This document shows positions 11,650-24,056 of a DNA stretch of 64,000 bases, piece after piece; the first letter of the stretch is position 1; each line of letters starts with the position of its first letter. This DNA is from Acetobacteraceae bacterium (lineage in GTDB: Bacteria > Pseudomonadota > Alphaproteobacteria > Acetobacterales > Acetobacteraceae): the NCBI GenBank assembly GCA_024280945.1, contig JAMXLO010000113.1:1-64000 (forward strand). The letters run 5' to 3'. A program made the translations under genes and the position numbers. The notes under the pieces are model-generated. The model worked only from the letters and a program-made list of their open reading frames with translations. It did no database searches and was not told the DNA's origin.

Positions 11650-13341
11650 TCAACCAATCACAAAGTTGCCAGCGTGAACTGCGAGATTGGGTTGTACCAT
11701 CGCAAGCAATACCGCGCCGCCTGGGCCGTTACCGTCGCTATCGTAGGACAATGCCCCGGACGCCGAAACATAGATGATCCGATCAGTTGCATCATGCGCT
11801 GTCGGACCGGCGAAGAAGGCATCGGGCGGTAGCGGTCCCTGCGCGAGTTCGGCGAATGCCTGATGGCTAAGCAACACGGTGTCAGTCGCCGGATTGAAGT
11901 CAGTCATATACGGCGCGACACTCGCATCGTTGGGCAATGCGCTGATCACAAACGCATGGGAGCCGGCCGATCCGTTGTCCGGCGTTGCCATCGCCGCAGC
12001 CCCGATGAAGCTCATCGCCGGAGCACCACCGACTGCCTTGGTCAACTGGGCGGCCGAAACGCTCGCCGCGCTGAGCACGCCCCCAACCTGAACATTGCCA
12101 AGGCCCGAGCCCGCCGATCCAGTGTCGGACGTTATTGCGCCGTCGCTCTCGACTGCGACCACGTTGCCTAGGTCGCCGTTCAGCAGCGGCGAACTGAAAT
12201 CGAGAAACCGGTAAGCGAGGTTGGTGACGTTGGTGGCATCGCCGGTCTCGGTCGCATAGGCCAGCACGACACGCCCATCGGTGAGCGTCTTCATGCTCAT
12301 CTCGAACAGACCCTGATCGCCCGGTTCCGCGAGATGGATCAGTGAACCCGAAGGCACAATCGAGCCCTGCGTGTTGAAACCAAAGTGCTGCAGGAACATG
12401 TCCTCGTTCGGCGAGCCGTCTTGTTCGCTACCCGATCCCGCGGTCCAGGCGAGCACGAAGCTGCCGTCCTTCAAGGCCGTAACCTTTGGCAAGAAGGCAC
12501 CGGCCGAGTTGGGAGCCCGCGTGGTCCCCAGCACTATCCCGTTTGACAGCATGTGCTTGATCATCACGCCGTCCCGATCCTGCCAGACGACGACCAGCGA
12601 ACTGTCGGGTAGTCGCGTCATATCCGGGAAGTTCGCGAACGGGGTTCCAGTGCCGCTGACACCGATCGCATTGCTGTTGATACCGTTGGGCGTCAACTCC
12701 TGGAAGCGAATGTCGGAGCTGCCATCGGGATTGACATGCGCATAGACAGCGTCGACCGTGTTGACCAGAGACAGGATCTTGGCATTCATCTGCGAACCGG
12801 ACTCGCCGAGAGCGCCCAACTGATTGTCGGTCGGAAGCGACGTGCCGTCGGCGTTGTACCAGCGAAGGAAGGTATGGGTCAGATTGCCGGCGGCGCCCTG
12901 CTCGTACGCGACGGCGGTGCCACTGAAAGTGGCTGCCGCGTCAATGAGCGTTTCGCCGGCGCTGGACGCCCTCGGGATCATGAATGGAAAACTCGTGTCA
13001 TCGAAGGCCGCGTTCACGGTGTGGATGCCGATCTCATCGTGCGTCGGCGTGTTCAGCACCCCGAAATCGGTGGTGATGGAACCGTCCTGGCCCTGCACGA
13101 TCAGCGGCGTTGTCAGCGCCCAATTCTGCGCAGCTGCGAAGGACGAAACACCCAGCAGGAAGTCGCCTGTCGTGAAACTTCCGGCAGAATTCAGGTGTTT
13201 GGCAACAAGATCGCCCGTGTCACTCTGCCAGGCGAGAATGAAGCTGCCATCGGCAAGAGGTGTGACCCGCGGCACGTGGCCAATGGGATCGGGTGCGAAG
13301 ATAACTTCTGGTCCGACAGTCTGCCCAATTCGCAATGCCAT
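11650..13341 (-). CDS. Secreted repeat protein with RTX-type C-terminal region
   Basis: 563-residue protein of unknown function with several internal repeats of the type LADGSFILAWQS, LPDSSLVVVWQD, LKDGSFVLAWTA and LTDGRVVLAYAT, about 60-120 residues apart, suggesting a beta-propeller or similar fold. There is no N-terminal signal peptide. The C-terminus (ATDRIIYVSASGALSYDSDG, then a Gly-rich stretch) resembles the end of RTX/hemolysin-type calcium-binding proteins exported by type I secretion. The start at 13341 was chosen for GGGAGCG upstream; the open frame extends to 13437. It is monocistronic, lies downstream of the cyclase operon, and is convergent with the TauD gene. No type I transporter is in the window. 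Confidence 0.75.
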   Translation of the reverse strand: MALRIGQTVGPEVIFAPDPIGHVPRVTPLADGSFILAWQSDTGDLVAKHLNSAGSFTTGDFLLGVSSFAAAQNWALTTPLIVQGQDGSITTDFGVLNTPTHDEIGIHTVNAAFDDTSFPFMIPRASSAGETLIDAAATFSGTAVAYEQGAAGNLTHTFLRWYNADGTSLPTDNQLGALGESGSQMNAKILSLVNTVDAVYAHVNPDGSSDIRFQELTPNGINSNAIGVSGTGTPFANFPDMTRLPDSSLVVVWQDRDGVMIKHMLSNGIVLGTTRAPNSAGAFLPKVTALKDGSFVLAWTAGSGSEQDGSPNEDMFLQHFGFNTQGSIVPSGSLIHLAEPGDQGLFEMSMKTLTDGRVVLAYATETGDATNVTNLAYRFLDFSSPLLNGDLGNVVAVESDGAITSDTGSAGSGLGNVQVGGVLSAASVSAAQLTKAVGGAPAMSFIGAAAMATPDNGSAGSHAFVISALPNDASVAPYMTDFNPATDTVLLSHQAFAELAQGPLPPDAFFAGPTAHDATDRIIYVSASGALSYDSDGNGPGGAVLLAMVQPNLAVHAGNFVIG

Positions 13342-13580
13342 GACATTCGCTCCCTGTGGCCGCACGCCCAGCTCGTTTGCGTCTGCAACGGTCGACGAAC
13401 TGAACGATGCATAGAGTCTTCGCGTCACAGCAGCCACGCGGCAGTGATCTCAGTCACAGGCTCGAGGCGGAAATTGTCTGAGAAAAGTTCTTCTCCGCAT
13501 GGTCGGCCAGCGGTTCGGGCTTCGCACGGCACTCCAAGTGCCGAGTAACGCAGCGGGCACGCTTGGCCTGTCGGATGGCG

Positions 13581-14702
13581 TCACCGAGGAGATTTCATCT
13601 CCACCACCTGGTACACGATGCCAGGTCTGGCCAGCCCCTTCAGCGGCAGTTCGCCAATCTCTTCAAGGCTGGCGGCTTCGTCGACGGCGGCAGCGATACG
13701 TTGATTGATAAGGACCTGGCCATCGCGCGCCGCGTCGCAAAGTCTTGCTGCGAGGTTGGTGACGGTGCCCATCGCTGTGTACTCGATGTGGTCCTCAAAT
13801 CCGACGTGGCCCAGGGTTGCGTACCCCTGGGCAATGCCGACTCCAAAGCCGATCTCGTGGCCGCGCCGTCGCCACCCCGAGGCTAACGCCCCAACTGCCT
13901 CGCGCATCTCGACTGCCAGGTGTACCGCCCGAAGCGCAGGATCGGGGCACGGGAACGGATCATTGAACAGGATCATCAGTCCATCACCCATGAAGTGCAT
14001 GAGCGTACCTTCGTGCCTGTGTATCTGTGGACCCACCGCGTCGTGGTACGCCTGCAGGACTGCCATCACCTCCTCCGGTTCCGAGATCTCGGAGAACGCT
14101 GTGAACCCTCGCAAATCGCAGAACAGAACGACGATCTCGCGCCGATGGCTGGCAAGGATACTTTCGTCACCGGATGCAACGATCATTTTCGCAAGATTGG
14201 GTGCCAGAAACCGGCGCAGGCGCGCCATGCGCTGGAGTTCTGTAACCTGCTCCGCCACCCGCTGCTCAAGGCCTGCGTTGAGCGACCGAAGTTCCTGCCG
14301 TTGGGCCTCGACGGTATCGTGCAGCTCCTTGATGCGCAGCATGGAGCGTACGCGCGCCAGCAGCGCGGAATGGTCGACGGGCTTGGGCAGGTAGTCGTCG
14401 GCGCCGGCGTCGAGTCCCGACACGACGTCCTTCACATCGGTCCTCGCAGTGATGAGGATGATCGGCATGAAGGGTATTTCAGCCTCTGCCTTCAGCCGTC
14501 GTGTTACCTCGATGCCATCGAGCCTCGGCATCATGACGTCGAGCAGGATCAGGTCAGGCAGGTTCTGCTGCGCGCTGACCAACGCCTGTTCTCCATCTGC
14601 TGCCGTGATGATGGCGTAGCCTTTGGCCCTCAATCGCGCCTGCAGGATGTCGACGTTTGCAGGATTGTCGTCCGCGATCAGGATCAGCGGCGGCGATCGC
14701 AT
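13581..14702 (-). CDS. Response regulator with class III adenylate/guanylate cyclase output domain
   Basis: 373-residue two-domain protein. The N-terminal receiver (1-125) has the acidic pair ADD and phospho-acceptor Asp55 in LILLDVMMP, with Lys in DDYLPKPVD. A coiled-coil linker (about 125-165, ELHDTVEAQRQELRSLNAGL) joins a class III cyclase domain (about 185-365). The two metal-binding Asp are visible in FCDLRGFTAFS (Asp196) and HFMGDGLMILF (Asp240), with the Asn/Arg transition-state pair in TNLAARL. It is therefore predicted to make cAMP or cGMP when phosphorylated. It is the last gene of the kinase operon, 5 bases after the single-domain receiver gene. Confidence 0.94.
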   Translation of the reverse strand: MRSPPLILIADDNPANVDILQARLRAKGYAIITAADGEQALVSAQQNLPDLILLDVMMPRLDGIEVTRRLKAEAEIPFMPIILITARTDVKDVVSGLDAGADDYLPKPVDHSALLARVRSMLRIKELHDTVEAQRQELRSLNAGLEQRVAEQVTELQRMARLRRFLAPNLAKMIVASGDESILASHRREIVVLFCDLRGFTAFSEISEPEEVMAVLQAYHDAVGPQIHRHEGTLMHFMGDGLMILFNDPFPCPDPALRAVHLAVEMREAVGALASGWRRRGHEIGFGVGIAQGYATLGHVGFEDHIEYTAMGTVTNLAARLCDAARDGQVLINQRIAAAVDEAASLEEIGELPLKGLARPGIVYQVVEMKSPR

Positions 14703-14707
14703 CGCGC

Positions 14708-15085
14708 TCAGCTCGCCGGACCTGGCAGAAAGCGCCGAATGGTCGCAAGCAAGGCGCGTGGACTGAACGGCTTGGCCACGTAGGCATCAGCGCCTGCTGC
14801 CCTTGCCTTCGCCTCGTCGCCACTCAGCGCATAGGAAGTGACCACGATGATAGGAATACTGCGGAGTTCCGGCTGCGCCTTGATGCGCTGGGTGGCTTCG
14901 TGGCCGTCCAGCACCGGCATCTGTACATCCATCAGGATCAGATCAGGTCGGTTGAGCTCAGCTAATCGCACGCCTTCTTCCCCGGTGGTCGCCTCGATCA
15001 GTTCGAATCCCGCACTTGTCAGCAGATCCCGCAGGATGCGCCGATTGTCCTCCTGATCCTCGACGACGAGAATGCGCTGGCTCAT
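14708..15085 (-). CDS. Single-domain response regulator (DivK/CheY-like)
   Basis: 125-residue stand-alone receiver. The acidic pair is in ILVVEDQED, phospho-acceptor Asp53 in [13 protein letters not shown], Thr in IVVTSYAL and Lys in [12 protein letters not shown]. There is no output domain, so it probably relays phosphate or binds a partner protein. It overlaps the 3' end of the histidine kinase gene by ATGA and precedes the receiver-cyclase gene by 5 bases. The layout kinase, small receiver, receiver-cyclase suggests a branched phosphorelay. Confidence 0.93.
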
Positions 15086-16719
15086 CGTGCGATACTCCGC
15101 ATTGGGGTGTGCACAGGCAACGTGAACCGGAACGTCGATCCCTTTCCCAGCTCAGACTCGACCCAGATGCGACCGCCATGCAGCTCGACAATTCTTTTCG
15201 AGATAGCAAGGCCGAGACCGGTACCGCCTTTGGTACGCGTGCTGGAGCTGTCCAGTTGCCGGAATTCTTCGAATACCACCTGCTGATCCTCTGGTGCAAT
15301 GCCAGGCCCGGTATCGGACACCGCAATCTGAAGAACGCCGTCTGACAAGGCAGCGTCGATCGCAACACCGCCGGCTTCGGTGAACTTGATCGCGTTTCCA
15401 ACCAGGTTCAGCAGCACCTGCGTGATACGTCTCTCATCACCTTCGCTAATCGGCAGATCATCTGCGATGGTGGTGGTAAATGTCAGTCCCTTCTCGGCGA
15501 CCAGCGCCTCGGTCCCTGCTATCACCGTTTGGACCACCTGTTTCATGGAATACTCGCCGACGGACAGCTCTAATTGGCCAGCTTCAATCTTCGATAGATC
15601 GAGCACGTCGTTGATCAAGCCGAGCAAGTGACGACCGTTGCTCTGAACCCGCTCCAGCACTTCGCGGATCTTCTCCGGCACTTCTCCATAGATGTCATCC
15701 AACACGAGTTCGGTGTAACCCAGGATGGCGTTCAACGGCGTGCGCAGCTCGTGGCTGGTATTGGCTAGGAACTCAGACTTGTGTCGGCTGGCGGCCTCAA
15801 GCTGCTCGTACAAGTGCCCAAGCTCTTCACAGGTCCGGTTGACGTCGATCGCCAATGCGCCAAGTTCATCGCGATTGGCGACGCGCACGCGCTGGGAAAA
15901 ATCGCCTTCCGCAATGCGTCGCAGCCGCGCTGCAATCTCGGTGACCGGCTCGATGAGGGACCAGGAAATGACATAGCCCAGCACAAGCGCAAGGACGACA
16001 CTGCCGCAGACAAAGGCGATGACGACCGTCTGCGACGCAGCATAGGATTGCCGCCCAGTCGTAATGCTGGTGAGCATCTCCGCCTCAGCGCGGTTGACCA
16101 GTTGGTTGGTCAGACGTTCAAGACGATCGGCGAGTGGTCCCGCCTGTCGCAACTGGATCTGCCGGGCGTCCGCAATCCGACCGGCGCGGTACAGCTCAGC
16201 GACCTCGCCCACGATCGCGACAAATCGGTCGTAGGTCTGCCTCACCTGGCCGGAGAGCGCCACATCTTCGGCCGTAACGAATTGCAGCCGTTCGAGATCG
16301 TAGTCGAACTGGTTGAGCTTGCGGAGCGCGGTCGCAAGCGCCCTGTCATCGGACAACAGCATTGCTGATGACACCTCGTACAACTGCGTCGTCGTGTCCT
16401 GCTGGACCTGGCGGTAAACCGCAATCTTGCGTTGCAGTCCGATCAGGTCGTTCGTGCGCTGGTGCGCAGCGCCGAGGACGCTCAGACCGACGGCTCCCAA
16501 TGCCACGAGCAGCGCGACCATCCCCAGGAACGCGACCAGAAGCTTGGCTTCCACGCGGGCGGGAATGCGAGCTACAAACGCAACGACCGCCCCTCGCAGT
16601 CTGCTCAGAGCACGTGTGGCGCGGCGCAACGGCCCGAACCTCAAACGGGAACCGACGACCTGCCCTTGCAAGGCGACCCTACGCGCTCCCAAAAGGTTCG
16701 ACCGGAGGTTCTGCCGCAA
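15082..16719 (-). CDS. HAMP-domain sensor histidine kinase with periplasmic helical sensor
   Basis: 545-residue membrane kinase. A basic N-terminal tail (1-55) is followed by TM1 (about 58-82), a periplasmic helical region (about 83-229, four-helix-bundle-like), TM2 (about 230-253), HAMP (about 254-306), HisKA with His323 in [11 protein letters not shown], and HATPase_c with [20 protein letters not shown] and [10 protein letters not shown]. The periplasmic part has no recognisable small-molecule pocket, so it could read a protein partner such as one of the binding proteins encoded upstream. It starts 5 bases after the SCO1 gene and overlaps the receiver gene. A later start that removes part of the basic tail is possible. 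Confidence 0.93.
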
Positions 16720-16724
16720 GTGGT

Positions 16725-17306
16725 CTATGATTTCCCCGTCAGGCTCAGAAGGTCACGGCGCAACTCGTCGGGATCGAAGCGGACACCAAGGTATTGCACC
16801 CGCATCATACCATGCGGATCGATCACCGAGATCAGGTTGGTGTGGTCCACATCGCCCGACGGCGCTCGCGCGACGAACACGCCGTAGCGGCGCTCGATCG
16901 CCTGGATCGCGTTCGGTGAACCGGTGAGAAATTTCCATCCGGCCAGGTTGGCACCGAATGTCTCTGCGTAGTGCCTCAGCACGTCGGGGCTGTCGTGCTC
17001 GGGATCGACGGTGATCGAGACAAAGATGACCCTGGATCCGAAGTCATCGCCGATGCCATCCTGCACGGTCGCCATTTTCGCCGTCAGAATCGGACAGGTG
17101 GACGAACACGACGCGAAGATAAAGTTAAGCGCCACAGCCTTGCCGCGGAACTGCGCAAGCGTCACCTGGGTCCCGTCCTGAGCACGCAGCACAAAATCCG
17201 GCGCCTGACCTATCACCGGCAGTCCCGAATCGTCTAGGGCCAAGTCGGGCAGCGCGGGCGTCGAGCCCGCCAGAGCTGCTGCCAACAGGATGACGGCCGC
17301 TCGCAT
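16725..17306 (-). CDS. SCO1/SenC/PrrC family thioredoxin-fold protein
   Basis: 193-residue exported protein with an N-terminal signal-like segment (about 1-18) and a thioredoxin-fold SCO domain. The copper/thiol site is intact: Cys67 and Cys71 in [11 protein letters not shown] and His155 in [10 protein letters not shown]. Family members deliver copper to the CuA centre of cytochrome oxidase or act as thiol reductases and redox sensors. No oxidase gene is near. Instead the gene sits between the last binding-protein gene (2-base gap) and the histidine kinase (5-base gap), so it belongs to the sensory operon. A service role for the conserved cysteines of the binding proteins is inference. Confidence 0.93.
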
Positions 17307-17308
17307 GC

Positions 17309-18334
17309 TCAGGTCTTAAGCTCACGTTTGAGTTCATTGATAAAGCGCCAGTCGGTATGCTCGGCGATGATCCGGTCTGGTGTGGACTTGATGTAGCCGG
17401 CCTCATTCAGTCGCAGCGCGAAAAAGCGCGCCGTATCTTCGGGATCGAAATCCCGCCAAACGCCGTAGGGCAGCTCCTGCAGAGTCTGCAATGCGTAATC
17501 GTAACGCGGCGAGAACCCCTTATCGACTATCAGCCGCGCCATCCGCTCCGGCTCATTGGCGCACAGGTCGGCCGCCTTCAGCCATGCACGTACGATGCGT
17601 TTGGTGGCAATCGGGTATTCTCGGACAAACTCCGTCCTTCCGACCAGCATGCAGCAAAAATACTGTGACCACGGACGATCGGTGACGCTGTTAACCAGCG
17701 TATGTCCCATCCTGCGATCGTGCAGCTCCAGCGACTGCGGCATGCTGGTCAGGAACGCATCGATCTTGCGCTCGACAAATAAGTTCATTGGATCGGTGCC
17801 GGAATCCTCTATCCAATGGATATCATTGTGTGGATCAAGGCCGACGAACTTGGCCATGAGACTTACCAGGTACCGAGACGACACGTAGCCGCGGGACCAG
17901 CCGACCGTTCTTCCCTTAAGTCCGGTAATGCTGCGCACGTGGTCGTGCGCAATGAGTTCGTAGCAACCGGGATGTACTCCGGCAACCATTGTCAGGGGGG
18001 CGCCGTCATCCATGTTCGCGATTGCATCGGCCGTGACAGCCGTGGACCAGTCAATCTGTTTGTGTGTCAGCTCTGTCACCGGGTCCGTATCCCTGGGTCG
18101 ATAACGGATGTCGGTAAACCCTTCGGCTTGAAGCAGCGCCTCGGCCACGTATGCCGGTGCCGTGCAGGTGCCGGGAATTCTTTCGAGAGTCACGGTGGTG
18201 ATCTCGGGCGGCGGCTCTGCGGCGAACGATCTGCCGCCACTGCCCAACCCTACAGTGGCGAGTCCGCCCATGCCGGCAACGCCCGCGACACCGAGATGAC
18301 CCAGGAAACGGCGCCGGCTCTGTTCGATCGACAT
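17309..18334 (-). CDS. Tat-exported periplasmic binding protein, array copy 1 (NMT1/SsuA-like)
   Basis: 341-residue periplasmic type II binding protein related to the NitT/TauT (NMT1/THI5-like) group. The twin-arginine signal SRRRFLGHL is at residues 6-14, with cleavage likely after SFAA near residue 39. Array-wide motifs are [37 protein letters not shown] and DLCANEPERMARL. Five cysteines (57, 124, 227, 228, 258) recur in the paralogues. The start at 18334 follows ACGGAGGCTGCG and gives the same length as copies 2, 4 and 7; the frame is open to 18370. It is the copy nearest the SCO1 gene. No permease or ATPase is adjacent, so it may be a receptor, not a transport component. Confidence 0.88.
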   Translation of the reverse strand: MSIEQSRRRFLGHLGVAGVAGMGGLATVGLGSGGRSFAAEPPPEITTVTLERIPGTCTAPAYVAEALLQAEGFTDIRYRPRDTDPVTELTHKQIDWSTAVTADAIANMDDGAPLTMVAGVHPGCYELIAHDHVRSITGLKGRTVGWSRGYVSSRYLVSLMAKFVGLDPHNDIHWIEDSGTDPMNLFVERKIDAFLTSMPQSLELHDRRMGHTLVNSVTDRPWSQYFCCMLVGRTEFVREYPIATKRIVRAWLKAADLCANEPERMARLIVDKGFSPRYDYALQTLQELPYGVWRDFDPEDTARFFALRLNEAGYIKSTPDRIIAEHTDWRFINELKRELKT

Positions 18335-18366
18335 CGCAGCCTCCGTGGACGCGTTCGACATTATGG

Positions 18367-19392
18367 TCACGTTTTCAACTCATGCTTGAGCTCATTGAGA
18401 AAGCGCCAGTTCGTATGTTCGGCAATAATCCGATCTGGAGTAAACTTGGTGAACCCTGCCTCGTTCAGCCGCAGCGCGAAGAAACGCACCGAATCTTCAG
18501 GATCGTAATCTCGCCATACGCCGTAGGGCAGCTCTTGCAGCGTCTGCAAGTTATATTCGTAGCGGGCGGTGAACCCACGCTCGACCATCAGTCGGGCTAC
18601 CCGCTCTGGTTCGCTGGCGCACAGATCAGTCGCCTTCAGGAAGGCCCGCAGAATACGTTTGCTCGCGATCGGATACTTTTGCACGAACTCGGTCCTGCTC
18701 GCCACCATGCAGCAGTAATACTGCGACCATGGACGATCAGTGGCGCTGTTGACGAGCGAATGCCCGATCCCGCGGGCGCGGAGCTCCGACGTTTCTGGCG
18801 GGCTCGACAGGAAGGCATCGATCTGCCGATCGATAAACAAAGCCTTAGGATCGGCCTTCGAATCATCCACCCAATTGATGTCCTTGTCAGGATCAAGACC
18901 GACGAACTTTGCCATCAGGGCTACCAGGGCCTTGGACGCAACAAAGCTGGGAGACCAGCCTACAGTCTTGCCCTTCAGCCCGGCAATGCTGCGAACATGG
19001 TCATGAGCGATGAGCTCCAGGCAGCCGATATGCACACCGGCAAGCAAAGTTATGGGAGCGCCGGCGCCCAGGTTCGCAATTAGATTCGGCGCAACCACAA
19101 AGGTCCAGTCGACCTGATTGTGCGCTAGCTCCAGAGTCGTGTCCGCATCCCGCGCCCGGTACCGGATATCGGTAAACCCCTCAGCCCGAAGCAGGTCCTC
19201 GGCGACGTATTCCGGCGCAATGCAGATGGCGGGGGGGTCCTTTTCCAACGTGACGGTGGTGATCTCCGGCGGCGGCTCTGCGGCGAGTGATATGCCACCG
19301 CTGCCCAACCCGACGGCGGCAAGGCCACTCAAGCCAGCGGCACCCGTTGTGACCTGGCTGAGGAAACTGCGCCGGCTCTGTCCAAACGGCAT
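18367..19392 (-). CDS. Tat-exported periplasmic binding protein, array copy 2
   Basis: 341-residue paralogue of the neighbouring binding proteins. It keeps the twin-arginine motif (QSRRSFLSQ), the cleavage region SLAAEPPPE, and the array motifs [26 protein letters not shown] and DLCASEPERVARL. All five recurrent cysteines are present. Differences from copy 1 cluster between residues 80-115 and 170-210, the lobes that would line a ligand cleft, which suggests a different ligand. It lies 32 bases upstream of copy 1 and has a near-identical ribosome-binding region (GGAGGCTGT before ATG). Confidence 0.88.
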   Translation of the reverse strand: MPFGQSRRSFLSQVTTGAAGLSGLAAVGLGSGGISLAAEPPPEITTVTLEKDPPAICIAPEYVAEDLLRAEGFTDIRYRARDADTTLELAHNQVDWTFVVAPNLIANLGAGAPITLLAGVHIGCLELIAHDHVRSIAGLKGKTVGWSPSFVASKALVALMAKFVGLDPDKDINWVDDSKADPKALFIDRQIDAFLSSPPETSELRARGIGHSLVNSATDRPWSQYYCCMVASRTEFVQKYPIASKRILRAFLKATDLCASEPERVARLMVERGFTARYEYNLQTLQELPYGVWRDYDPEDSVRFFALRLNEAGFTKFTPDRIIAEHTNWRFLNELKHELKT

Positions 19393-19423
19393 TACAGCCT
19401 CCGTTTATTAGAAGATATGAGAA

Positions 19424-19842
19424 TTACGCCTTCAGCTCCCGCTTGACTTCGTTGAAGAAGCGCCAATCCGTATGGTTGGCGATAATCTGTTGGGGGTCGT
19501 GGCGGCAGCACCGTTGTCCACCTCAGCGATAATGTTCGACGCGAAATCAGTGGCCCAATCCATCTGATTGCTAGCCACCGCGTGGGTGGGAATTCCGAAG
19601 GTGAATTCGTAGCCGACGTCCACAAATCCCTCCGAGCGAAGCTGCGCCTCGGGTGCATAGTGCGGCGCCGTGCAAATGCTGGAAGTCTTTTGAATCCGGC
19701 GCGTCGTGATTTCCGGCGGCGGCTCCGCGGCGACCGATCTGGCGCCACCGACGACCCCGGAACCACCAAACCCGCCCGCGGCGGCAAAGCCCGCTGCACC
19801 AAGTTGGTTCAGGAAACGGCGCCGGCTCTGTTCCATCGGCAT
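19424..19842 (-). pseudogene. Binding-protein array copy 3, internally deleted
   Basis: The first ~105 codons are a normal array member with twin-arginine signal QSRRRFLNQL, SICTAPHYAPE and a segment ending IIAEVDNGAA. The sequence then jumps directly to the extreme C-terminus, where DPQQIIANHTDWRF and EVKRELKA are readable in a different frame, ending at 19424. About 200 codons are missing, including the CC motif and most of the ligand-binding fold. The in-phase open frame stops at 19432. The ribosome-binding site is intact. This is a deletion derivative of a seventh gene and cannot make a working protein. Confidence 0.9.
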
Positions 19843-19873
19843 TGCAGCCTCCTCGATAAGTTTGATGTGCCGA

Positions 19874-20899
19874 TTACGTCTTCAACTCGCGCTTGACCTC
19901 GTTGAGAAAGCGCCAGTTGGTATGCTCGGCTATGATTCGGTCTGGCGCGGACTTGATGAACCCAGCTTCGTTCAGCCTTAGCGCGAAATAGCGCACCGTA
20001 TCCTCGGGATCGAAATCCCGCCATGCCGTGTAGGGCAACTCTTGCAGCACCCGCAGGGCATAATCGTAGCGGTTGCTGAACCCCCGCTCGACCATCAGCC
20101 GGGCCATCCGTTCCGGTTCGTTGGCACATAGGTCTGCTGCCTTCAGCAGGGCGCGTAGGACGCGTTTCGTCGCGATCGGATACTTTTGGACAAACTCGGT
20201 CCGGCCGACCAGCATGCAGCAGAAATACTGCGACCACGGACGATCTGTGAGGGTGTTGACGAGCGTATGCCCGATCTTACGATCGCGAAGCTCAAAGGTC
20301 TGAGGCACGTTGCTCAGGAAGGCGTCGATCTTTCGATCGACGAACAAGGCCATCGGATCGGTCTTGGAATCCTCCAGCCAGTGGATATCGCTGTGCGGAT
20401 CAAGGCCAACGAACTTGGCCATGAGGCTTACCAGGTACTTGGACGACACATAGTCGCGAGACCAGCCAACCGTCTTACCCTTCAGTGCGGCAATACTGCG
20501 CACGTGGTCCTGTACGATGAGCTCGTAGCAACCGGGATGTATCCCAGCAACCAACGTCAAGGGAGCACCGCTGTCCATGTCACCGATTGCATCCGCCGCG
20601 ACACCATAGGACCAGTCGATCTGCTTGTGTACAATCTCCGTCACCGGATCCGTATCCCTCGTTCGGTAACGGATGTCAGTGAACCCCTCGGCCCGAAGGA
20701 GCGCCTCAGCCACATATGTTGGTGCGCCGCAGGTGCCAACAGCTTTCTCGAAGGTGACCGTGGTGATTTCCGGCGGCGGCTCTGCGGCGAGCGATCTGGC
20801 TCCACCGCCAAGCCCAGTGCTGGCAAGCCCTCCCATACCGGCAGCGCCGGCGATACCGAGTTGACCCAGGAAACGCCGCCGGCTCTGTTCAATCGGCAT
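19874..20899 (-). CDS. Tat-exported periplasmic binding protein, array copy 4
   Basis: 341-residue array member, closest to copy 1 by eye: they share RDTDPVTE, HPGCYEL, YLVSLMAKFVGLDPH and PWSQYFCCMLVGRTEF. The twin-arginine signal is SRRRFLGQL and the mature start is near SLAAEPPPE. All five recurrent cysteines are present (GTCGAP, HPGCYE, FCC, DLCANEP). The start follows AAGGAGGCTGCA. It lies 31 bases upstream of the deleted copy 3. The closeness to copy 1 suggests one arose from the other within the array. Confidence 0.89.
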   Translation of the reverse strand: MPIEQSRRRFLGQLGIAGAAGMGGLASTGLGGGARSLAAEPPPEITTVTFEKAVGTCGAPTYVAEALLRAEGFTDIRYRTRDTDPVTEIVHKQIDWSYGVAADAIGDMDSGAPLTLVAGIHPGCYELIVQDHVRSIAALKGKTVGWSRDYVSSKYLVSLMAKFVGLDPHSDIHWLEDSKTDPMALFVDRKIDAFLSNVPQTFELRDRKIGHTLVNTLTDRPWSQYFCCMLVGRTEFVQKYPIATKRVLRALLKAADLCANEPERMARLMVERGFSNRYDYALRVLQELPYTAWRDFDPEDTVRYFALRLNEAGFIKSAPDRIIAEHTNWRFLNEVKRELKT

Positions 20900-20922
20900 T
20901 GCAGCCTCCTTTGATACGACAG

Positions 20923-21926
20923 TTACGCTTTCAGCTCTCGCTTAAGTTCATTAAGGAAACGCCAGTCCGTTCCCTCAGTAATGATCTTTTGGGGGCCCGA
21001 TTTGATGAAACCGACTTTATGCATGCGCAGAGTATAGAACCGGAGGGTGTCTTCGGCGTCGTACTCACGCCATTTGTCATAAGGGAGCTCACTCAGCGTC
21101 TGTAGCGTGTAATCGTATCGCGGTGTGACGCCGCTATCGACAAGTTGTCGCGCAGCGCGCGCCGGGTCGCTGGCACAGATGTCCGTCGCCCTTAGGACCG
21201 CGCGCACCACGCTCTTCGTTGCACGCGGGTAATTCCTGACGAATTTGCGGTTTCCGGCCAGTAGACAGCAAAAATACTGCGACCATGTATGGTCCACGGC
21301 GGTGTTGACGATCACATGGCCGATGTGGCGGCCACGCAGATCCTGCGGCTCGGGTGGGAAGCCCAGAAACGCGTCGATCTTGCCTTGCATAAAGAGGTCG
21401 AGCGGTCGACGAGAAGGGTCGGTGACCCAGTCAATGTCATTGGCCGGGTCGAGCCCGACAGAAGCTGCCAGGAGAGTGGGAAGTCCTACCCTAGTCGATC
21501 CCGCCCCTTGAGTCCCAAGACTCTTGCCTTTCAAGTCTGTGATGCCTCGGACGCGTTCATTTCCGAAAAGCTCATAACAGCCCACCATTACGCCGGCCAA
21601 CAGCGTGATCGGTGCGCCAGCGTCGATCTTGGTGAGCATGGTCCACGGAGTCTCAAGCGAGAAGTCGACTTCGCCACGCTCCAGGTAGTCGCCCGAGCCA
21701 GGCCGGGAGGGGTAACATAGCGGACGTCGGTGAAGCCCTCTGCGCGCAGCAACTCCCCCGCTACGTATTGCGGGGCGATACAGATGACAGGGGCGTTCGG
21801 GAAACCGACCGTGAGGATTTCCAGCGCCCCCTCTGTGGGCAACGCTCGCGGAGCTCGTAGGTATGTCGCAGCGCCGACCGCTGAAGCCGTGGCAAGGAAA
21901 AGGCGTCTGGTCTGCGTCGTAGACAT
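20923..21926 (-). pseudogene. Binding-protein array copy 5, single frameshift
   Basis: Two adjacent frames together make one array member. The N-terminal part (21926 down to about 21690) has RRLFLATAS, VICIAPQYVAGELL and AEGFTDVRYVTPPG. The C-terminal part resumes in another frame as GDYLERGEVDF and continues through MVGCYELF, WSQYFCCLLAG and DICASDPARAARQL to ELKRELKA. The shift lies near 21690-21705, in a short G/C run. This may be a true inactivating mutation or a sequencing error. Apart from the shift the gene is well preserved, with all five cysteines. This copy is more divergent from the others and has a short, atypical signal region. Confidence 0.85.
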
Positions 21927-21947
21927 TGGAGGCCTCGCCAGCTTCTC

Positions 21948-23000
21948 TTACGCCTTCAATTCACGCTTGAGCTCGTTGAGAAAGCGCCAATCGGTATGCT
22001 CGGCAATCAGCTTCTGCGGGCTGGACTGGATCAGGCCCGCCTCGTGCAGCCGGAGCCCATAGAAGAGGAGCGTGTCCTCCGGGTCGTAATCGCGCCAAAC
22101 GTCGAAGCGGACCTCGCTCATCGCCTGCAGAGTATAGTCATAGCGCGTCGAATACCCCTGTTCCACGAGTAGTTGCGCGACACGATCGGGGTTGGAAACG
22201 CAGAGATCGGTGGCCTTGAGCATCGCGCGCAAGACTCGCTTGGTGGCGACCGGATACATACGGGCAAATTTGGTACCGGTCGCCAGCATGCAGCAATAAT
22301 ACTGCGACCACGGTCGGTCGGTGACGCTGCTGACAATCACATGTCCGATGTGCCTGGCGCGAACCTCCTGCAGATCAGGGGGAGCGGCTAGGAAGGCATC
22401 GATCTTGCCCTCGACGAACAGCTCCATTGGTTGCAGCTTCGGATCCGTCACCCAGTGGAGATCCCTGGCCGGATCGAGACCGACCATGCTGAACATGATG
22501 GTCAGCAGGGGCCGATTCCCCGCAGTATTGTAATCCGCGCCCACGGTCCTGCCCTTCAGGTCGGCGAGGGTGCGAATTTCATTTTTCCCGAAGATTTCGA
22601 AGCACCCGAGATGTAGGCCAGCCAAGATTGTAATCGGCGCGCCAGCATTCATTCCGAGGACGAGAGATGGTGCAAAGTTCCTGCCGAAATCCACCTCATC
22701 GTGCACGATCATACTGGTAAGCCAATCCAATTTGGCAACATCGGCTCTGCGTATATGCGCTTCGGTCAGGTCCACGTAGCGGATATCGGTAAAGCCCTCG
22801 GCCCGCAGCAATTCCTGAAAAACTTGCGGCGCGATGCAGGCTACGGAGTCTTTTTCGAAGCGGACAGTGGTGATTTCCGGTGGCGGCTCCGCGGCGAACG
22901 ATCTGCTTTTTCCACCAAGGCCGACGCTGGCAACGCCGCCCATACAGGCAGCGATAACAACCTGACCCAGGAAACGGCGCCGGCTCGGTTCAATCGGCAT
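21948..23000 (-). CDS. Tat-exported periplasmic binding protein, array copy 6
   Basis: 350-residue array member, slightly longer than its siblings. The twin-arginine signal is SRRRFLGQV, with mature start near SFAAEPPPE. The motifs are VACIAPQVFQELL, LHLGCFEIFGKNEIR, PWSQYYCCMLATG and DLCVSNPDRVAQL, so the five cysteines are kept. It has an insertion after residue 80 (DLTEAHIRRADVAK), giving the extra length, and GADYNTAGNRPLL where others have a WS-x-SYV segment. Together with copy 5 it forms a subgroup with GKNE/GNER in place of AHDH after the conserved GC. It lies 21 bases upstream of copy 5. Confidence 0.88.
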   Translation of the reverse strand: MPIEPSRRRFLGQVVIAACMGGVASVGLGGKSRSFAAEPPPEITTVRFEKDSVACIAPQVFQELLRAEGFTDIRYVDLTEAHIRRADVAKLDWLTSMIVHDEVDFGRNFAPSLVLGMNAGAPITILAGLHLGCFEIFGKNEIRTLADLKGRTVGADYNTAGNRPLLTIMFSMVGLDPARDLHWVTDPKLQPMELFVEGKIDAFLAAPPDLQEVRARHIGHVIVSSVTDRPWSQYYCCMLATGTKFARMYPVATKRVLRAMLKATDLCVSNPDRVAQLLVEQGYSTRYDYTLQAMSEVRFDVWRDYDPEDTLLFYGLRLHEAGLIQSSPQKLIAEHTDWRFLNELKRELKA

Positions 23001-23030
23001 TGCAGCCCCCAGCTGGTTCCAACTCGGCAG

Positions 23031-24056
23031 TTACACTTTCAGTTCACGCTTTACCTCGTTGAGAAAACGCCAATCGGTGTGGCGAGCAATGATCCGCTGC
23101 GGGTCGGACTTGATGAGTCCCGCCTCGTTCATACGCAGCGTGAAAAAGCGCAGCGTGTCCTCAGGATCGTTATCTCGCCAGACGCCGTACGGCAGTTCCT
23201 GCAGGCTCTGCAAGGCGAAGTCGTAACGATCAGTAAACCCACGCTCGACCATCAGTCGAGCCACCCGTGCCGGTTCGGAAAAGCACAAGTCGGTGGCCTT
23301 CAGGAACGCCCGAACAATACGCTTGGTCGCTGCGGGGTACTTTTGGACGAACTCGGTTCTGCTGAACAACATACAGCAGAAGTAATTCGACCATGGCCGA
23401 TCGGTGGCACTGTTGACCAGTGAATGGCCAATCCCGCGGGAGCGCAGCTCCTGGGTCTGTGGCGGAACGGCCAGGAAGGCATCGATCTTCTTGTCGATGA
23501 ACAAAGCCATCGGATCGGCCGTCCGATCGTCTACCCAGTAAATGTCCTTTTCGGCATCGAGGCCGACAAGGCTCGTCATCAGGGCCACAAGATCTTTCGA
23601 TGAGGAATAACTGGGGGACCAGCCGACCGTTCTGCCCTTCAGGCCGGCAATACTCCGCACGTGGTCATGCGCCATGAGCTGGTAACAACCGACATGCGTC
23701 GCAGCCACGGCTGTCAGGGCCGCACCTTTATCGACAGCCGTGATGATCTCCGGTGCGAAATCCATGTCCCAGTCCAATTGGCCCTGGGCCACAGCCGATG
23801 CTGGGGCGGTATCAATCGCCTGGTAGCGAATCTCGGTGAATCCCTCCGCCCGAAGCAGATCTTCGGCCACATACTGTGGCGAGAGACAGGTGCTCGGTGC
23901 CTTTTCGATAGTAATGGTCGTGACTTCCGTGGGCGGCTCGGCGGCAAATGAACTCACTGGACCATCGAAACAAACTCCGGCGAGGCCACCCGCGCCGGCA
24001 ACACCCGCTACAGCAAGTTGGCTCAGAAAATGCCGCCGACTTCGCTCTATCGGCAT
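23031..24056 (-). CDS. Tat-exported periplasmic binding protein, array copy 7 (promoter-proximal)
   Basis: 341-residue array member and the first gene of the run. The twin-arginine signal is SRRHFLSQL; mature start near SFAAEPPTE. The motifs are [47 protein letters not shown] and [13 protein letters not shown], with all five recurrent cysteines. The start at 24056 gives the same length as copies 1, 2 and 4 and follows GGGGGGAGCG; the frame is open to 24092. The 182 bases between it and purH should hold the operon promoter, but no clear -35/-10 pair could be picked. Confidence 0.88.

Follow-up and report, generated by a model that had tools for sequence, protein, structure and literature searches.

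Functional context and conserved cysteines of the array

The window analysed here (64,000 nucleotides of an Acetobacteraceae bacterium, contig JAMXLO010000113.1) carries on its minus strand, between 17309 and 24056, five intact genes, one frameshifted gene and one decayed copy for exported binding proteins, and raises the question of why such proteins should keep a common set of five cysteines that includes a vicinal pair. They look like parts of a hitherto undescribed sensing device, one that would respond, outside the inner membrane, to a metal, to some sulfur compound or to a change in redox state. The reading we prefer, to which we give a probability of about one half, is that these proteins, exported by twin-arginine translocation (Tat) and of NMT1/THI5 fold, are signal inputs of the histidine kinase encoded in their operon, and that a Cys/His pocket in them takes a thiophilic ligand, most likely copper. 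Signalling through a binding protein and a kinase is well supported by the operon and by the use of the kinase as bait; the geometry of the pocket, the class of ligand, docking, the role of SCO1 and the cyclic AMP (cAMP) output are what we infer beyond that.

A scan of genome contigs gave 22 loci from named genomes and metagenome-assembled genomes (MAGs) of several phyla. Residues are numbered throughout as in the copy at 17309. In 45 full-length proteins, a count that excludes loci L004-L007, C57, C124, C227 and C228 are present in all and C258 in 43. Seventy near-full-length members were merged to 65 non-redundant ones (<95% mutual identity, median identity 49%; 23 partial open reading frames (ORFs) were skipped), and C57, H121, G123, C124, W222, C227 and C228 are found in 65/65 of these and C258 in 63/65, both exceptions being copies at a single locus, L022, that keep the other cysteines. 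Thirteen of the 296 mature columns are invariant in the 65 homologues, four of them being C57, C124, C227 and C228, and all remaining mature columns together hold six cysteines. Plasmid-borne homologues of Sinorhizobium and Microvirga, checked afterwards, have all five cysteines, H121 and W222 in 17/17. Judged from these alignments the set is conserved beyond chance, and beyond the single genome in which it was first described, and because it is conserved it is probably functional.

All five intact window copies have C57-x-(A/S)-P, G123-C124, (F/Y)-C227-C228 and D-L-C258, and all five are above the Pfam cut-offs of both PF09084 (NMT1) and PF13379 (NMT1_2). The first gene of the array is at 23031-24056 (341 amino acids, ATG at 24056), and it is followed by intact genes at 21948-23000 (350 amino acids), 19874-20899, 18367-19392 and 17309-18334 (341 amino acids each; the last, with its ATG at 18334, is the basis of the structure model). 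Two decaying copies sit within the array. When the frames of the frameshifted one (20923-21926) are read separately, one yields CIAP and the other VGC, YFCC and DIC, so that the five recurrent cysteines reported in the preliminary description of this DNA are present here also, over two frames; it has Met in place of His121, a residue otherwise invariant in intact homologues. The seventh copy (about 19424-19842) retains C57 and consists of an N-terminal part and, in a different frame, a C-terminal scrap, the middle and most of the protein being gone.

Export and predicted fold

Export by Tat, which had been proposed earlier, is predicted here also: of the twin-arginine signal R8 is present in 44/44 aligned rows and R7 in nearly all, and the Tat model TIGR01409 scores above its cut-off in three of the five intact window copies, below it in one and has no match in one. 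(The homologue L024:1239-2771, whose start is bad, is absent from this 44-row alignment and present in the counts of 45 and 65.) An AlphaFold2 model made from the same alignment has a mean predicted local distance difference test score (pLDDT) of 89.3 and a predicted template-modelling score (pTM) of 0.84, and model and Foldseek matches confirm the NMT1/THI5 type of fold. The solved structural matches include NrtA, CmpA, a formyl-aminopyrimidine binder, SsuA, TauA and THI5; by sequence no solved structure matches better than THI5 (E=9.5e-10), whose CCCFC aligns at C227/C228, and SsuA is the nearest NCBIfam family by score, below cut-off. The desulfinase DszB and MqnD are also fold relatives, and the entry titles of each name a cysteine (DszB C27S, modified MqnD Cys11).

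In the secondary structure of the model, C57 follows the first strand and opens helix 56-63, C124 is at the break between strands 114-122 and 125-129, C227/C228 at the start of strand 226-233, and C258 near the end of helix 241-260. We take the first three of these positions to face the cleft and hinge in NMT1-type folds, which makes a shared site of the four core cysteines plausible; the set is likely the binding pocket.

The operon and its recurrence

Immediately 3' of the array and on the same strand, each separated by a few bases, are genes for a protein of the SCO1/SenC (copper-handling) type (16725-17306; PF02630, E=8e-30), a histidine kinase (15082-16719) whose domain matches and alignment give a conserved cysteine-free periplasmic domain, HAMP, HisKA and HATPase, a single-domain receiver (14708-15085; PF00072) and a receiver fused to a class III nucleotide cyclase (13581-14702; PF00072 and PF00211). 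The SCO1 linkage was already in the preliminary description, which overlooked the kinase, receiver and receiver-cyclase downstream. Because the operon continues with a kinase, and usually with a receiver and receiver-cyclase, the binding proteins are better read as signalling proteins than as transport binders. No permease or ATPase gene is present in the window operon, and none is annotated inside three annotated plasmid cassettes, though a permease may be encoded elsewhere. Downstream of the receiver-cyclase, at 11650-13437 on the minus strand, lies an ORF of 595 residues that matches nothing in Pfam at E up to 0.01.

The order of one to six binding-protein genes, SCO1, kinase and usually receiver and receiver-cyclase is repeated in genomes that include those of rhizobia and Betaproteobacteria and a Myxococcota MAG. 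The beginning of the kinase gene and the DNA upstream of it are visible in 23 systems (the window, L009, L011, L012, L016-L026, L123, L124, L130, L131, L140, L141, L142 and L144), and in 23/23 the next recognised gene upstream is a binding protein, at up to 1.1 kb from SCO1 (L017). SCO1 lies between binding protein and kinase in 22/23, a receiver was detected in 18/23, and the number of intact binding-protein copies per system is one to six. Downstream sequence is short or partial at L013, L015, L027, L028, L029 and L030, and L015 and L138 end within the adjoining SCO1. One system, L131:7903-16355, has a single binding-protein copy next to its kinase and no intervening SCO1; 3.4 to 5.9 kb upstream of it are genes for a PQQ-type (pyrroloquinoline quinone) dehydrogenase and, at 5.4-5.9 kb, for a PCuAC copper chaperone.

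Cassettes are also found on plasmids of Sinorhizobium and Microvirga. Three of these plasmid records name the products ABC (ATP-binding cassette) transporter substrate-binding protein, SCO family protein, ATP-binding/GAF domain-containing protein and response regulators, and two further records are unannotated at the cassette. We note that pNGR234b of Sinorhizobium fredii NGR234 (L143) carries one intact binding protein with all five cysteines, and no cassette was detected in the 10 kb to either side of it. The literature listings consulted, which lack most subscription papers, include no account of this operon.

The family is sparsely distributed. It was found in one of 120 genomes of the window's taxonomic family, namely its own; at E up to 1e-30 in two of 385 of the class, its own and one with a cousin-type match (L037; see below); and in three of 151 of the taxonomic family of a Mesorhizobium genome, that genome counted. 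The five intact window copies form one clade (support 100/97), and there are separate local clades in Microvirga, Mesorhizobium and L022, so by the tree copies have arisen repeatedly while the cysteines persist.

Kinase, SCO1 and receiver-cyclase

A profile of the kinase periplasmic domain, built from 12 rows, was used as bait with an E cut-off of 1e-12. Among the 397 genomes of the phylum that were scanned it matched three, the window's own and two new ones, and binding proteins adjoin the kinase in 3/3. Conversely, among 20 genomes reached by way of binding-protein loci the kinase domain is present in 17, strongly (E<1e-60) in 14. In 14 kinases (only ORFs matching before residue 80 were compared) the periplasmic domain is as conserved as HisKA, at 0.74 each, HATPase being at 0.66, and at most one cysteine occurs in any of its columns. 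Where a kinase domain binds a small ligand it is usually the part that varies, and the conservation of this one therefore suggests that it recognises a protein partner. Against a four-helix-bundle model the periplasmic part of the window kinase has a weak score of 17.8 bits (cut-off 27) and that of L020 is above cut-off at 33.7 bits. The kinase is not TorS, scoring 254.8 bits against a cut-off of 676.5. Its weaker relatives L132-L135 (E 1e-20 to 1e-24) have no such binding protein or SCO1 detected within the 14-15 kb available. At L134:6000-8342 the gene immediately before the kinase relative encodes a carboxypeptidase-regulatory-like domain and has a weak cupredoxin match, under threshold (19.1 bits, cut-off 21.2).

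The SCO1 protein was correctly described earlier as of Cys-x3-Cys type and in the same operon, an operon that proves widely conserved; CxxxC and a distal His are present in 15/15 aligned SCO1 sequences, and copper binding by them is therefore possible. The window's genome has a second SCO1 elsewhere. In 15 aligned receiver-cyclases the Asp, Asp, Asn and Arg places, which we take to be catalytic from the motifs, are kept in 15, 14, 15 and 15, respectively. Neither receiver protein of the window, the receiver at 14708 nor the receiver-cyclase at 13581, has a match to a DNA-binding domain.

Relatives in ABC operons

It had been stated that binders of the NitT/TauT type normally lack such a cysteine set. 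This is so for half of the 16 NMT1-type control relatives from the same genome and class that can be aligned to the family profile: eight have none of the set (one of them, L079, lacks its N-terminal part), three have part of it (L076, L078 and L083) and five have C57, H121, C124, C227 and C228 without C258. Three further controls from the window's own genome (L002, L003 and L008) had no profile match and hence were not judged. L078 and L083, which we read as NasS-like nitrate sensors, have C-x-x-P and HPCC, two thirds of the motif, and no HxGC.

The five relatives with the core set, here called cousins, form one clade on the tree, and in a wider draw the core four cysteines and the His are present in 13/13 cousins and C258 in none. 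The core set thus appears older than the sensor family, and C258 is particular to the latter; since C258 is lost alone in two L022 copies and in 13/13 cousins, it is, on the alignments, separable from the core four. The cousins (L069, L070, L071 and L115-L122) represent a second, mostly Tat-type family of NMT1 binders with a C57/HxGC/CC set and ABC-permease linkage. Permease genes lie beside all five cousin loci tested (L069, L070, L071, L120 and L121), and an ATPase gene beside L070, the single locus tested for one; the best-scoring model for that ATPase is SaoA, and for the permeases NtrB is about tied with SaoP, all of these below cut-off. Sulfur-related genes are found near some cousins, namely an O-acetylhomoserine sulfhydrylase (L121), a rhodanese (L119, and two more elsewhere) and two luciferase-type monooxygenases. 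No single pathway emerged from the 133 ORFs of 11 cousin loci among the families listed (53 ORFs were screened jointly, with 25 of 63 families listed) and the ORFs screened singly.

Proposed mechanism and alternatives

We propose that the Tat-exported NMT1/THI5-fold proteins of the array would be periplasmic signal-input subunits of the operon kinase and not ABC-import proteins. C57, C124, C227 and C228, with H121, would be placed at cleft and hinge, where a thiophilic ligand would be bound or would react with them; a soft metal is likeliest and copper the first candidate. Once loaded, the protein would dock on the kinase at its conserved, cysteine-free periplasmic domain; phosphate would then be handed on to the receiver and, in systems that have one, to the receiver-cyclase, with a change in cAMP as the result. 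SCO1 may load, strip or reduce the pocket in most systems without being essential to the design, and tandem copies may widen range or specificity. Copper is favoured because of SCO1 and, weakly, because of the PCuAC gene near the SCO1-less L131 system.

Several observations weigh against this proposal. The sample has a bait bias, 20 of the 23 systems having been reached via the binding protein, with the window as the start and only L130 and L131 reached via the kinase. In the 20 genomes reached via binding proteins the kinase-domain match is weak or partial in three and lacking in three (several are fragmentary MAGs). A receiver-cyclase was seen in 15/23 systems; L016, L020, L022, L024 and L026 have none within the available DNA, L026 having a receiver-type match only, and L019, L021 and L023 end too soon to show one. 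Orphan copies exist at L010, L014, L137 and L143, with no SCO1 or kinase detected within 2.7, 4.6, 8.2 and 10 kb downstream, respectively. In L131 one five-cysteine binding protein abuts the kinase with no SCO1 between (a genome-wide search for SCO1 was not made there). Finally, ABC-linked cousins also have the core four cysteines, which are thus not specific to signalling. ABC import by the array proteins is nevertheless disfavoured, the cassette having neither permease nor ATPase, though the cousins show the same cysteines in an importer setting.

As a tentative extension, the paralogues might be Tat-exported Cys4-His binding proteins that differ in the soft-metal, sulfur or redox species, or in the concentration, to which each is tuned, and that report to one kinase and through it to cAMP, with SCO1 as loader or eraser; together they would be a new class of periplasmic sensor.

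It is rather unlikely that the set is a thiol redox switch free of metal, in which the vicinal pair and C57/C124 cycle between thiol and disulfide with SCO1 as partner and the kinase reads the resulting shape. Such a switch would suit both the SCO1 (CxxxC) found in 22/23 systems and the likeness of SenC/PrrC to thiol-disulfide oxidoreductases (PMC9147068; this and the papers below are cited from the parts available to us), but His121 and Trp222 equal the cysteines in invariance, beyond the need of a plain disulfide, and L131 keeps all five cysteines with no SCO1 adjoining its kinase. The last point bears also on the original proposal of a metal site or redox switch serviced by the SCO1 protein: the conserved cysteines and the linkage in 22/23 systems agree with it, but service by a linked SCO1 is evidently not obligatory.

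A sensor of sulfur compounds, whose pocket cysteines hold or bond an organosulfur compound, sulfite, thiosulfate or sulfane sulfur, seems similarly improbable. It draws on the core-four cousins in ABC operons, some near sulfur genes (L121, L119 and others), on SsuA as the nearest NCBIfam family and on the cysteines in the entry titles of the fold relatives DszB and MqnD; the cousin neighbourhoods are, however, mixed, including a resistance-nodulation-division (RND) pump, a glycosyltransferase and others, and the cassette itself contains an SCO1 gene but no sulfur enzyme. Common as disulfides are in exported proteins, it is very improbable that the array encodes ordinary periplasmic binders whose cysteines form structural disulfides, since five cysteines would leave one odd thiol, vicinal disulfides are rare, C258 can be lost alone (as in L022 and the cousins) and the predicted secondary structure would put the core at the cleft and hinge.

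If the array proteins are indeed signal inputs of the kinase, what SCO1-kinase pairings sense (copper, redox or sulfur) would become open to testing, and genes named just "ABC transporter substrate-binding protein" in three plasmid records would be assigned a role.

Comparison with known systems

THI5, the hydroxymethylpyrimidine phosphate (HMP-P) synthase, is a cytosolic enzyme of the same fold, and its CCCFC is aligned at the vicinal pair. That motif is described as an essential iron-binding motif in which each Cys-to-Ala change causes thiamine auxotrophy (PMC10512395, citing Coquille 2012), and catalytic roles are assigned to Lys62 and His66 (PMC10848271). A THI5-like enzyme is rejected here, the family consensus at the Lys62 and His66 positions being neither Lys nor His. 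SaoX is an NMT1-like binder with selenocysteine (Sec, U) in a UxP motif, and in its group the transporter proteins that contain Sec are for the most part linked to resistance to heavy metals (PMC13188914). Membership in SaoX (NF040735) is likewise rejected, the scores of 34.7 to 54.2 bits falling short of the 300-bit cut-off, and the Sao system differs in having an ABC permease and ATPase. NasS is an NrtA-like binding protein that signals, as is proposed for the window proteins; it is a nitrate/nitrite sensor with NasT as partner (PMC3795266). It differs in being cytoplasmic, and the NasS-like L078 and L083 are without HxGC.

We know of no binding proteins in RegB-SenC-RegA (PrrB-PrrC-PrrA) systems. 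In these, as in the window, an SCO1-family gene shares its operon with kinase and response-regulator genes, and SenC/PrrC, which occurs with RegB/RegA, is copper-binding (PMC9147068). With an SCO1/SenC protein that has copper ligands beside the kinase in 22/23 systems, the window has in SenC beside RegB the precedent for its SCO1-kinase pairing. The regulator of RegB-SenC-RegA has a DNA-binding domain, whereas the window receivers have no such match.

Binding proteins that signal through a kinase are few, AioX, LuxP and TorT being those named in PMC5908839. AioX comes nearest as a functional precedent: it binds arsenite by Cys106 and signals to a kinase, and the AioX-AioS-AioR systems (with ArxX and ArrX) are like that proposed for the window in having a binding protein as kinase input in the same operon and a pocket cysteine for a thiophilic ligand (PMC5908839). 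Binding protein, kinase and regulator are in one operon here also. AioX is PhnD-like, whereas the five intact window copies have no match to the PhnD-like PF12974 up to E 0.1 and belong to an NMT1-type family in which four or five cysteines are invariant; the system here also has tandem copies, SCO1 and a receiver-cyclase. What would be new is the combination of an invariant Cys/His set, tandem paralogues and an SCO1 partner in one cassette, which is carried on rhizobial plasmids as well.

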